Part shown: positions 40,628 through 43,739 of the stretch, one piece after another
How the letters are laid out: each line of letters opens with the position of its first letter
How positions within the stretch are numbered: the first letter of the stretch is position 1
Position numbers and translations under genes: made by a program
NCBI GenBank assembly: GCA_020723325.1
Contig: DYJD01000019.1
Span: 62,001-126,000, forward strand
Source: Desulfosudis oleivorans
Lineage (GTDB): Bacteria; Desulfobacterota; Desulfobacteria; Desulfobacterales; SURF-7
Reading direction: 5' to 3'
DNA length: 64,000 nucleotides
Notes under the pieces: generated by a model
The model's input: the letters and a program-made list of their open reading frames with translations, nothing else
Told to the model about the DNA's origin: nothing
The model's database searches: none

Positions 40628-40655
40628 TTGACATTTGCTATTAGCATGTTATGTT
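40628..40655 (+). promoter_or_regulatory. Sigma70-type promoter of the relic-hgcAB transcript
   Basis: TTGACA at 40628-40633, a 16-bp spacer and TATGTT at 40650-40655. It overlaps the first of two palindromic operators (40633-40649); the second (40664-40680) would cover the transcription start. Confidence 0.6.
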
Positions 40656-40680
40656 ATTGGCATATTTGCTGTTAGCAAAT
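40633..40680. promoter_or_regulatory. Two palindromic operators, ATTTGCT-N3-AGCAAAT type
   Basis: The copy at 40664-40680 is a perfect palindrome, ATTTGCTGTTAGCAAAT. The copy at 40633-40649 reads ATTTGCT-ATT-AGCATGT, with a weaker right arm. They are 31 bp apart centre to centre (three helical turns), one between -35 and -10 and one at the start site, which is the arrangement expected for repression by a dimeric MarR/TetR-type protein. The binding protein is unknown; the MarR gene at 43212 is the nearest candidate. Confidence 0.6.
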
Positions 40681-40711
40681 ATATAGCCATCACCCTATCA
40701 ATGGAGGCAAC

Positions 40712-41323
40712 ATGCAACATGATGTAATCAAACCAAGTCCATCCACCCAACGTTTCCGGCTCGGGCAAAAGGAAAAACTGGACATCGTTTCCAATATATT
40801 TCCTTTCTGGCGCAAGCGTGATGCGGAAAAACGGAAAGCGGAGTTACCCTCTCCAAACGGCATTGAGTTGGAAAAAAGGATTTTTTATGATGCCGTCATT
40901 ATTTCCTGCAAGGCTGTCATCGGATTTGCCGAACGCTACGTCTATCTGGCCGAACAAATGGCCGCCATTATAGCCAGCGGCGCCAACACCATTCAGGTTT
41001 TCAATGATGAAGCCATCGTCAAGGGCTTCCTGGACGCCGGATTTTCCAAGGCGGAAGCCCGCAACTATATCATCACCGGCTGTGTGCAGCCCATTCCGGC
41101 CGCCACTTATGGATCGGTCTGCGCCGCCCATTCGGAAAACGGCCATGTGGTGTTCGGCTTTGTCACCGGTGCCACACCCGATGGTCGGAAGCAAATGGAG
41201 CCCTATTCCATCGGCGCGGCCGGCGGCCGCGGCCGGGAGAAAAAGGGGTATACTGCCGCCCTTAAATCCTTCAGCAAAATCAACCCTAATGAAATCATCG
41301 CAAGGACCGTACATGATCGTTGA
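40712..41323 (+). pseudogene. Collapsed glycyl-radical enzyme (PFL-like) relic
   Basis: An open frame of 203 residues with a good ribosome site (GGAGG). It is made of pieces of a much larger glycyl-radical enzyme in correct order. Residues 15-45 (IFPFWRKRDAEKR) match an early part. Residues 50-90 (IFYDAVIISCKAVIGFAERY) match a later helix. Residues 95-145 (NDEAIVKGFLDAGFSKAEAR, then YIITGCVQP) contain the active-site cysteine region. Residues 150-190 (FVTGATPDGRK, then YTAALKSFSKIN) match the part before the last third. The spans between them and the whole C-terminal glycyl-radical domain are missing; family members have about 800 residues. The deletions have kept the reading frame open. It cannot be an active enzyme. 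It shares a transcript with the HgcA-like gene 43 bp downstream. Confidence 0.75.
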
Positions 41324-41366: not shown

Positions 41367-42491
41367 ATGAAATTGCTATCACTTACTGCCATATCCTTTT
41401 TTATCGGTATAGCTGGAAAGTCTGGTTATATCAAAGCATTTGAACCATACTTCCCATGGTTTCTCGGAATCGGTTTTTTAATGCTCAGCCTATGGCTGTT
41501 GAGCCTTACCTTTTATTCCAGCGGACATGACTGGCCTGAAACAAATCATAAGCCCCAAAAAATCCGGTTAATTCCCGTGGACAGCCTGAAAGCGCTGATC
41601 GCCTGGTTCCATGCTTTCCAAAGGACCTATGCCGTGGCGCCGGGACTTTACTACACCGGAGACCGCTATGATCCTGAATCACCTTTGCTGGTCACTTCCA
41701 ATTATCACTTGACCGTCTTTTTACTACTACGGGCCGTGCGAGGATTTTCCATTAGACTGTTGGTGATCGACACGGACGGCATAAATGTCTGGTGCGCTGC
41801 CGGCAAGGGGGCTTTTAACAATACGGCCATCCTGAAGCAGATCAGCCGTTTCCAAAAGGATTTAAGCGTAAATGGGAAAAAAATCCAATTGGTTTTGCCC
41901 AAGCTGGCCTTATCCGGTGTAAATCTTCAGGAGTTGCGACAAACCGGTGTACGACCGATAATCGGCCCCATCAAAATTAAAGACCTGCCGGCCTTTTTGT
42001 CCAGCCCCAGCTTGGTGGATCAAACCGCCGACATCTATCAATTCGATTTCAGATCCCGGTTGTTCACCTGGTTGCCCGGACTGGTGCAATATATGATCTA
42101 CGGTTTGATGTTGGTCATGGGACTCCTGGGGATAGAAGTTCTTTGGGGGTTGCAGGCACCTACTGGAATCATCCTGCTGATTGCGCTGACGGCCACCCTT
42201 TATCCCATCTTGTTTCCTTGGTTGCCTGGACGCGGCTTTGCTGCCAAAGGCTTGTGGATGGCCGGGGGCTTGGGAACTGCTGTACTCACATCGGTTCTTT
42301 TCAATCACATGAGTATCCATGCGGCCATAACGACCATCGTTTTTGCCTTTGCCTTATCCATTCTTTTTGGTTTGTCTTACACCGGGAATTCTCCGGTGAG
42401 CAATTATACACGGGTACGAAAGGAGACCGCCCGTTTTCTACCCCTGAACATCATGCTCTTTGTAACCAGTTTTGTCCTGTATCTTTTATAA
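41367..42491 (+). CDS. hgcA: HgcA-like corrinoid membrane protein with extra N-terminal helices
   Basis: Protein of 374 residues. The corrinoid-binding domain (about 88-215) shows VAPGLYYTGDRYDPESP, LLVTSNYHL, and the HgcA cap-helix motif NVWCAAGK (Asn140-Lys147, cobalt-ligating Cys143 in the family). The membrane part (about 230-374) has five helices and a loop with YTGNSPVSNYTRVRKE, matching the FTG ... V-x-x-E region of HgcA. HgcA carries a methyl group on cobalt and, with HgcB, methylates mercury(II). This copy differs from well-studied ones by about 50 extra residues at the N-terminus with two hydrophobic segments (3-17 and 30-50), and by changes in the domain core (RLLVIDTDG, LVLPKLALSGV). 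It could be a true HgcA or a relative with another substrate. ACAGGAG precedes the start. Confidence 0.8.
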   Translation: MKLLSLTAISFFIGIAGKSGYIKAFEPYFPWFLGIGFLMLSLWLLSLTFYSSGHDWPETNHKPQKIRLIPVDSLKALIAWFHAFQRTYAVAPGLYYTGDRYDPESPLLVTSNYHLTVFLLLRAVRGFSIRLLVIDTDGINVWCAAGKGAFNNTAILKQISRFQKDLSVNGKKIQLVLPKLALSGVNLQELRQTGVRPIIGPIKIKDLPAFLSSPSLVDQTADIYQFDFRSRLFTWLPGLVQYMIYGLMLVMGLLGIEVLWGLQAPTGIILLIALTATLYPILFPWLPGRGFAAKGLWMAGGLGTAVLTSVLFNHMSIHAAITTIVFAFALSILFGLSYTGNSPVSNYTRVRKETARFLPLNIMLFVTSFVLYLL

Positions 42492-42503
42492 GGAGGATTT
42501 TAT

Positions 42504-42752
42504 ATGCTTCACATCGATTCAACAGCCTGCAGCGGCTGCGGGTCTTGTAAAAAAGTTTGTCCCCATGGTGTTTTATCGATTGAACAACGAAAAGCCCGTG
42601 TAAAAGTGGAAGAACGCTGCATCGAATGCGGCGCCTGCCAGCTCAACTGCCCGGAAAAAGCCCTTACGGTGCAGAAAGGAACCGGTTGCTTGTTCATCAT
42701 CATCAAGGAAGATATTTTGAAACTGAATTCCGGGGCATGTGCTTGTGGATGA
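42504..42752 (+). CDS. hgcB: HgcB-like 2[4Fe-4S] ferredoxin
   Basis: Protein of 82 residues encoded 12 bp after the HgcA-like gene behind a strong AAGGAGG site. Two [4Fe-4S] motifs are visible, CSGCGSCKKVCP and CIECGACQLNCP; the second fits the HgcB-type CxECGA wording. Then GTGCLFII adds a lone cysteine, and the C-terminus ends in CACG, a cysteine pair as in HgcB. HgcB supplies low-potential electrons to the corrinoid of HgcA, and its C-terminal cysteines are thought to hand over mercury. The linkage and the tail cysteines make a general ferredoxin less likely. Confidence 0.8.
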   Translation: MLHIDSTACSGCGSCKKVCPHGVLSIEQRKARVKVEERCIECGACQLNCPEKALTVQKGTGCLFIIIKEDILKLNSGACACG

Positions 42753-43178: not shown

Positions 43179-43211
43179 ATGTATCATACTGAGCCAAAGG
43201 AAGGAGCCAAA

Positions 43212-43739
43212 TTGAATAATAACTCCATGGTCCAAAGAACCTATCAGGCCTTTACATATCTCTCCCGCCGGGTGAGTCGACTGATGCGGGAGCAACTTTC
43301 GCCCTGCCCCATCACAGTGCAGCAATGTTATGCCCTCGAGTCCTTGATGGATGGCCCCAAATCCATGAGCACCCTGGCTGAAGACGTGGCCATTCATCAA
43401 AGTACTCTTACCCGGATTGTGGAAAAACTGGAAAAACAAGGTTTGGTCGAACGAACCCGCAAGGTGAATAATCAACGAATGGTTGTGGTTCAGATCACGG
43501 AAACCGGCAAACAGATCCATGATCAGCTTCACCAGGAATCCTTAAAAATCATTTCCGCCCTGTTGGATCAGATCCCCGTCTCCCAGCGCGAAAACCTTTT
43601 ATGCGCGCTGGAAGCGGTAGTGAAGCTCATTGATCCGGAGAACCAAACTTTCCGAAGCGTCATGAATAGCTGCTGCAATACCGACATGATTGCCGGCATC
43701 ATGCCCATGAAAAAAGCCGGGCATGAATCAGCCGGATAG
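43212..43739 (+). CDS. MarR-family transcriptional regulator
   Basis: Protein of 175 residues if it starts at TTG 43212, which sits 5 bp after AAGGAAGGAG; ATG 43179 gives 186 residues but lacks such a site. The winged helix-turn-helix is visible as TVQQCYALESLMDGPKSMST, LAEDVAIHQSTLTRIVEKLE and LVERTRKVNNQRMVVVQIT. The C-terminal tail adds FRSVMNSCCNTDMIAG, with a cysteine pair that could serve in redox or metal sensing. It is a candidate for control of the palindromic operators at 40633-40680, as it is the only regulator gene in this island. The operator link is an inference. Confidence 0.88.
   Translation: MNNNSMVQRTYQAFTYLSRRVSRLMREQLSPCPITVQQCYALESLMDGPKSMSTLAEDVAIHQSTLTRIVEKLEKQGLVERTRKVNNQRMVVVQITETGKQIHDQLHQESLKIISALLDQIPVSQRENLLCALEAVVKLIDPENQTFRSVMNSCCNTDMIAGIMPMKKAGHESAG

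Follow-up and report, generated by a model that had tools for sequence, protein, structure and literature searches.

The 64,000-nucleotide stretch of DNA analysed here (the window) carries a gene cluster, hgcA2-hgcB2-marR, that rather probably forms a self-regulated unit encoding an HgcAB-type corrinoid methyltransferase anchored in the membrane. Its HgcA protein falls in a clade of its own, which is most probably the sister group of canonical HgcA and is not CFeSP-like. hgcA2 (41367..42491, plus strand) specifies a 374-aa HgcA-like corrinoid membrane protein, as judged from its ORF, profile matches, tree and AlphaFold2 model, and hgcB2 (42504..42752, plus strand) an 82-aa two-[4Fe-4S] ferredoxin. 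Both ORFs were confirmed at these coordinates and are preceded by ribosome-binding-site-like sequences. The third gene, marR (43179..43739, plus strand), encodes a 186-aa MarR-family regulator. The initial annotation of an HgcA/HgcB-like pair marked by NVWCAAGK, YTGNSP, five C-terminal helices, CIECGAC and a cysteine tail was borne out by the ORFs, the profile E-values and the structural model. HgcA2 matches the HgcA model NF040863 with 178.4 bits (E=2e-52) and HgcB2 the HgcB model NF040864 with 84.4 bits (E=4e-24), below the respective equivalog cut-offs of 275 and 99. Since these strong NCBIfam matches stay below the cut-offs, the two proteins are clear relatives and, by the curated standard, members of neither family. 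HgcA2 is also below the cut-off of the HgcAB-like fusion model NF043039 (136 bits, cut-off 285), the pair consisting of two separate ORFs and not a single chain, and below the gathering score of PF03599 (23 bits, gathering score 24.8).

The host is a sulfate-reducer-type bacterium whose genome (7.2 Mb, 113 contigs, 99.5% complete) holds the window in contig C101. About 74 kb from the hgcA2 pair, at C101:29286-30608, lie a canonical hgcA (451 bits) and hgcB (127 bits), both above cut-off, with an ArsR-like gene directly upstream. The CFeSP genes of the host sit on contig C18. A plasmid origin was rejected, with no match among 72,556 plasmids. All-against-all comparison of the flanking ORFs revealed no widely common neighbours apart from regulators. 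A third HgcA relative, 50% identical to the window HgcA2, was noticed on host contig C98 (L020 9543-10517, G000). This copy stops inside the C-terminal membrane domain, continues as an in-frame fusion to the HgcB2 tail (TKGVGCLFIIIKEDIL) and lacks the ferredoxin; it looks like an internal-deletion product.

AlphaFold2 modelling of HgcA2 with a 13-sequence alignment left the cap region unresolved, and a 46-sequence alignment resolved it, with a mean pLDDT of 91. The modelled protein opens with an N-terminal membrane hairpin (residues 2-46, helices 2-19 and 23-46; 41370..41504, plus strand), delineated at pLDDT 89-95 and by hydropathy. The corrinoid-binding domain that follows (residues 70-216; 41574..42014, plus strand) was assigned by its match to the CFeSP large subunit (Z ~15, rmsd 1.9-2.0 Å over 124-127 residues). 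It includes the cap helix (residues 141-146; 41787..41804, plus strand), placed by the model and by the alignment of Cys143 (codon 41793-41795). The C-terminal membrane domain (residues 228-373; 42048..42485, plus strand; model and alignment) comprises five helices (228-260, 267-285, 291-311, 317-341 and 347-373) and contains the clade motif GNSxVSNY, with YTGNSP near the C-terminus. The best fold match of the whole model was the HgcAB model 9a0b, which is likewise a computed, though published, structure (Z 16, rmsd 6.2 over 296 residues), followed by CFeSP. NVWCAAGK spans residues 140-147 and fits the HgcA cap-helix consensus N-V/I-W-C-A-A/G-G-K; Asn140, Val141, Trp142 and Cys143 are invariant over the 46 aligned sequences of the clade and canonical HgcA. 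In the model, HgcA2 has the cap helix of HgcA with Cys143 as predicted cobalt ligand.

The N-terminal hairpin had initially been taken for a novel membrane extension. Its two helices were indeed modelled, and no counterpart occurs in the 31 canonical HgcA proteins; nonetheless, it is not unique, being found in most non-spirochaete members of the clade. Hydrophobic N-terminal segments are present in 10 of 15 aligned clade HgcA proteins (a single one in L030) and in none of the 5 spirochaete members. In the structural comparison of the whole HgcA2 model the hairpin had no clear solved relative, its matches all being short helical hairpins. The divergent core sequence VLPKLALSGV, also pointed out initially, proved to be a clade signature. 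Identity to the canonical proteins is 23-31% over the alignment, and 16 positions split the two groups, including Arg130 (Trp in canonical HgcA), Lys179 (Gln), Pro197 (Val), Phe283 (Leu) and Ser345-Asn346 (Thr-Ser). All 15 aligned clade members have Lys179, where all 31 canonical proteins have Gln. A further spirochaete sequence, L178, retains Gln at this position. Clade-fixed changes such as Lys179, Arg130 and Ser345-Asn346 lie in both the corrinoid and the membrane domain, so that the acceptor site may differ.

HgcB2 shares with canonical HgcB the linked two-cluster ferredoxin architecture, the CxECGAC motif and the tail cysteines, whereas the clade proteins lack the N-terminal YL..V.TL stretch. 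It displays two CxxCxxCxxxC(P) motifs, one of which includes CIECGAC, and a C-terminal CACG tail with Cys79 and Cys81; Cys62 is the counterpart of Cys73 in HgcB of ND132, which is essential (PMC7305189). This extra cysteine, within G[TA]GC, is kept in all 15 clade HgcB proteins seen, as is the characteristic tail [TEQ]KG[TA]GC. At least two cysteines end the protein in 11 of these 15, one in L029 and none in L025, L027 and L028. Tail-cysteine loss in the latter three is weak evidence on the substrate, because some 20% of the HgcB proteins aligned in PMC7305189 also lack any tail cysteine. In L024 (9085-9339), Arg replaces the first cysteine of CIECGAC, which the near relative L026 retains; this is either a sequencing error or the loss of a cluster ligand.

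The clade is rare and was charted at 17 sequences from 16 genomes of several phyla, with 38-75% identity. One genome per species (84,980 genomes) was scanned with short peptide patterns, a method that undercounts; this retrieved 12 close loci (L022-L033) at 44-75% identity, after which identity fell to 27-41%, the range of canonical HgcA and other relatives. The same gap appeared in scores within phyla. The window's own genome was alone above 290 bits among 395 Desulfobacterota genomes (120 with an HgcA relative), the rest reaching at most 146; six clade members scored 369-511 bits in 393 Spirochaetota genomes (next ≤178), and three scored 523-579 bits in 379 Myxococcota genomes (next ≤171). 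Other full-length members match NF040863 with 150-176 bits, also under the cut-off of 275. Canonical hgcA above cut-off was found in one of the 12 scanned clade genomes, that of the sister species, and in the window's own genome, so that canonical hgcAB and the clade pair coexist in two genomes; absence was counted in draft genomes, which may miss genes. Two of the 11 remaining genomes have an HgcAB-like fusion.

The corrinoid domain was used for a maximum-likelihood tree (59 rows, LG+C20), in which the 14 clade sequences included are monophyletic with support of 100/99. They join canonical HgcA at 94/68, and canonical HgcA without the clade is held together at 88/79, whereas CFeSP forms a separate 100/100 branch. 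Four archaeal relatives and CFeSP lie outside the clade plus canonical HgcA. The stem of the clade is long, at about 2.5 changes per site. Because stems are long, the exact join (sister versus nested) is less certain than the clade itself. Of the two possibilities raised initially, a methylator of an unusual branch or a corrinoid enzyme with another substrate, the unusual branch is thus upheld, outside canonical HgcA, and on sequence grounds mercury is one possible substrate. A separate thorarchaeal 577-aa ORF (L057 7230-8960) combines a CpaM-like methyltransferase domain with an HgcA-like domain lacking the NVWC motif.

Domain order, the cap-helix cysteine, the five-helix membrane domain and a frequent regulator neighbour liken the pair to canonical HgcA/HgcB (NF040863, NF040864). 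Our literature search did not find the clade described as such, nor biochemical evidence on any member; an earlier mention is possible, as the main evolutionary work (Lin et al. 2023) fell outside this search. Long-branched 'Spirochaetes-like' hgcAB sequences, BARM-01, -07 and -09, were reported by Capo et al. 2020 (PMC7536318). Like the clade, they combine NVWCA[AS]GK and CIECGAC with a long branch near spirochaetes, and our guess, from motifs and placement alone, is that they are members. The HgcAB-like fusions (NF043039, with a SAM methyltransferase neighbour) resemble the pair in the cap-helix NVWCAA, the corrinoid domain, the membrane helices and the ferredoxin. They differ in being one fused protein, and two clade genomes have them in addition to the pair. 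L122, L124 and L134, which lie in the genomes of L023 and L025, are HgcAB-like ORFs that carry a ferredoxin part at the C-terminus and adjoin a SAM-dependent methyltransferase; L122 matches NF043039 with 391 bits, and a TetR-type regulator also adjoins L124 and L134.

To our observation, newly made here, the clade pair clusters with a cysteine-pair MarR (ArsR in spirochaetes) and, in three genomes, with a locus-specific 33-bp operator. A MarR gene lies downstream of hgcB2 in the window, L022 and L023, and an ArsR gene in four spirochaete members (L031, L032, L033 and L177); L179 has no regulator beside the pair, L178 stops at the contig edge, and the two models applied detected no MarR/ArsR neighbour in L024-L030. 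This downstream position differs from the upstream position of the regulator at canonical hgcAB, which frequently adjoins ArsR in the loci examined, as reported before (PMC7438021, PMC10349881). In two canonical loci (L051 4381-4857, L058 5681-6157), the gene directly upstream of hgcA belongs to the MarR family and has cysteine-rich ends; it might act in place of the known ArsR control. The MarR proteins of the window, L022 and L023 and their orthologue in G818 have QQC and a C-terminal CC in common. ArsR of L031-L033 has CC at its C-terminal end or close to it, and cysteines near the usual sensor helix are present in all four spirochaete ArsR proteins. These cysteine-bearing regulators suggest, by inference, a thiophilic signal.

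Upstream of hgcA2, a candidate promoter was read by eye (40628..40655, plus strand), with -35 TTGACA (40628-40633), a 16-base spacer and -10-like TATGTT (40650-40655). It is overlapped by a candidate 33-bp MarR-type operator (40633..40665), recognised from the sequence as an imperfect palindrome (11/15), ATTTGCTATTAGCAT-GTT-ATGTTATTGGCATAT. A second palindrome, ATATTTGCT-GTT-AGCAAATAT (40662..40682), has the counterpart ATGCTTGCT-ATT-GGCAAGCAT in L022. A 59-base upstream block, which holds TTGACA and an inverted repeat, is 89.8% identical between the window and L022, above the genes (77.7-80.2%). The operator site precedes hgcA2 in the window, L022 and L023, and a perfect 15+3+15 palindrome precedes the orthologous marR in G818. 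At a tolerance of 3 mismatches, the operator pattern marks one locus per genome in these four genomes, with no other site except the opposite-strand reading of the palindrome; as the pattern was built from the same four sites, their matches arise by construction and the absence of other sites is the result. A reversed control pattern had zero matches, 2 of 100 window shuffles yielded one match, and C98 had none. MarR may bind this palindrome. Co-transcription of marR with the pair is uncertain because 427 bases lie between hgcB2 and marR in the window. Between the operator and hgcA2 lies a glycyl radical enzyme remnant of the PFL family (40712..41323, plus strand), in which a single 203-aa frame links separate family pieces and the greater part of the core is gone; the L022 locus lacks it.

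The L023 cluster hgcA2-hgcB2-marR continues into a gene resembling MddA (methanethiol S-methyltransferase; 125 bits, cut-off 270). No clade HgcA was found in G818, where the marR orthologue and operator (L176 6550-8394) adjoin a protein that combines an MddA-like part with a C-GCAxxG-C-C part; slightly further out come genes resembling those for selenophosphate synthase and YedF.

In the HgcAB-type scheme that we favour, HgcB2 would deliver low-potential electrons to yield Co(I). The Cys143-capped corrinoid of HgcA2 would then accept a methyl group, probably from methyl-tetrahydrofolate, and hand it to a soft, thiol-bound acceptor on the HgcB2 cysteine tail. MarR would repress from the operator over the promoter and be released once its cysteines meet the acceptor or a related thiol-reactive signal. 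Grouping HgcA2 with CFeSP instead would account for the common corrinoid fold and the weak PF03599 match, but AcsC, the CFeSP large subunit, lacks both the cap cysteine and the membrane domain. We rejected such membership, to which we give next to no credence, on the separate branch in the tree and on the true CFeSP genes on C18; placement with CFeSP-type proteins, which the initial annotation had named as refuting a mercury role, is not what the tree showed. That the pair is a decaying, functionless paralogue is very improbable. The truncated and fused C98 copy and the broken gene between operator and hgcA2 would fit decay, but the window copy is intact, as are Cys143 and the ferredoxin cysteines, and the promoter/operator region is conserved. 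Comparison with L022 (NG86) gave dN/dS of 0.147 for HgcA2 (75% identity), 0.147 for HgcB2 (82%) and 0.176 for MarR (74%); hgcA2 and hgcB2 are under purifying selection. Canonical HgcA is 51% identical between the same two genomes and CFeSP 84.5%, so that the divergent pair is better conserved than canonical HgcA (75% versus 51%).

Mercury is a possible acceptor of the favoured HgcAB-type system, with roughly equal odds for a thiol or a different metal(loid); these are narrower versions of one explanation, and the confidences given for them overlap with it. That the pair is a genuine mercury methylator on a divergent branch, keeping the HgcAB reaction and substrate while evolving fast under different regulation, is a reading that we hold tentatively, at somewhat under even chances. 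It is plausible because the catalytic marks are intact, all essential ND132 residues being matched (Cys93 by Cys143, HgcB Cys73 by Cys62 and the required one or more tail cysteines by Cys79/Cys81; PMC7305189), and because most clade hosts have no canonical hgcA; in 11 of the 12 scanned genomes the pair would be the main HgcA. It sits less easily with the two missed equivalog cut-offs and the long stem, with the canonical hgcAB already possessed by the host and its sister species, and with the three HgcB proteins without tail cysteines, though these are also missing from some 20% of the HgcB proteins aligned in PMC7305189. A corrinoid methyltransferase with a different or additional acceptor, such as an organic thiol or a thiophilic metal(loid) other than mercury, is made plausible by the fixed substitutions, by the presence of canonical hgcAB in the same genome and by a regulator and operator of its own, and the MddA-like genes at the L023 cluster and beside the G818 MarR also speak for it; we likewise hold it as a tentative reading, short of an even bet. 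Its catalytic marks are nevertheless those of HgcAB, the MddA-like link concerns two loci and has no counterpart in the window, and a division of labour is not general since most clade genomes lack canonical HgcA. In a more specific form, in which the clade acts in nature not on mercury but by Cys-on methyl transfer to another soft acceptor (a small thiol, or a metal(loid) such as arsenic, selenium or antimony), that compound being the inducer via the cysteine-pair MarR/ArsR repressor, it is a conjecture to which we attach about one chance in three.

The clade pair should not count as hgcA without an assay. One survey accepts the motifs NVWCASGK and NVWCSAGK and HMM scores from 100 as HgcA (PMC8546676); its filters, and those of PMC10349881 for NVWCAAGK members, would pass many clade members. 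Methylator counts may therefore be inflated, as motifs accepted in PMC8546676 occur in the clade. Conversely, should the clade prove to methylate mercury, tools designed around the canonical genes may overlook it. A deep sister branch that sits beside canonical hgcAB in two genomes and has its own cysteine-bearing switch makes the native role of HgcAB a testable question, since the inducer of MarR/ArsR should reveal the substrate. If the clade acts on a non-mercury acceptor, this would shed light on the purpose of the HgcA superfamily.
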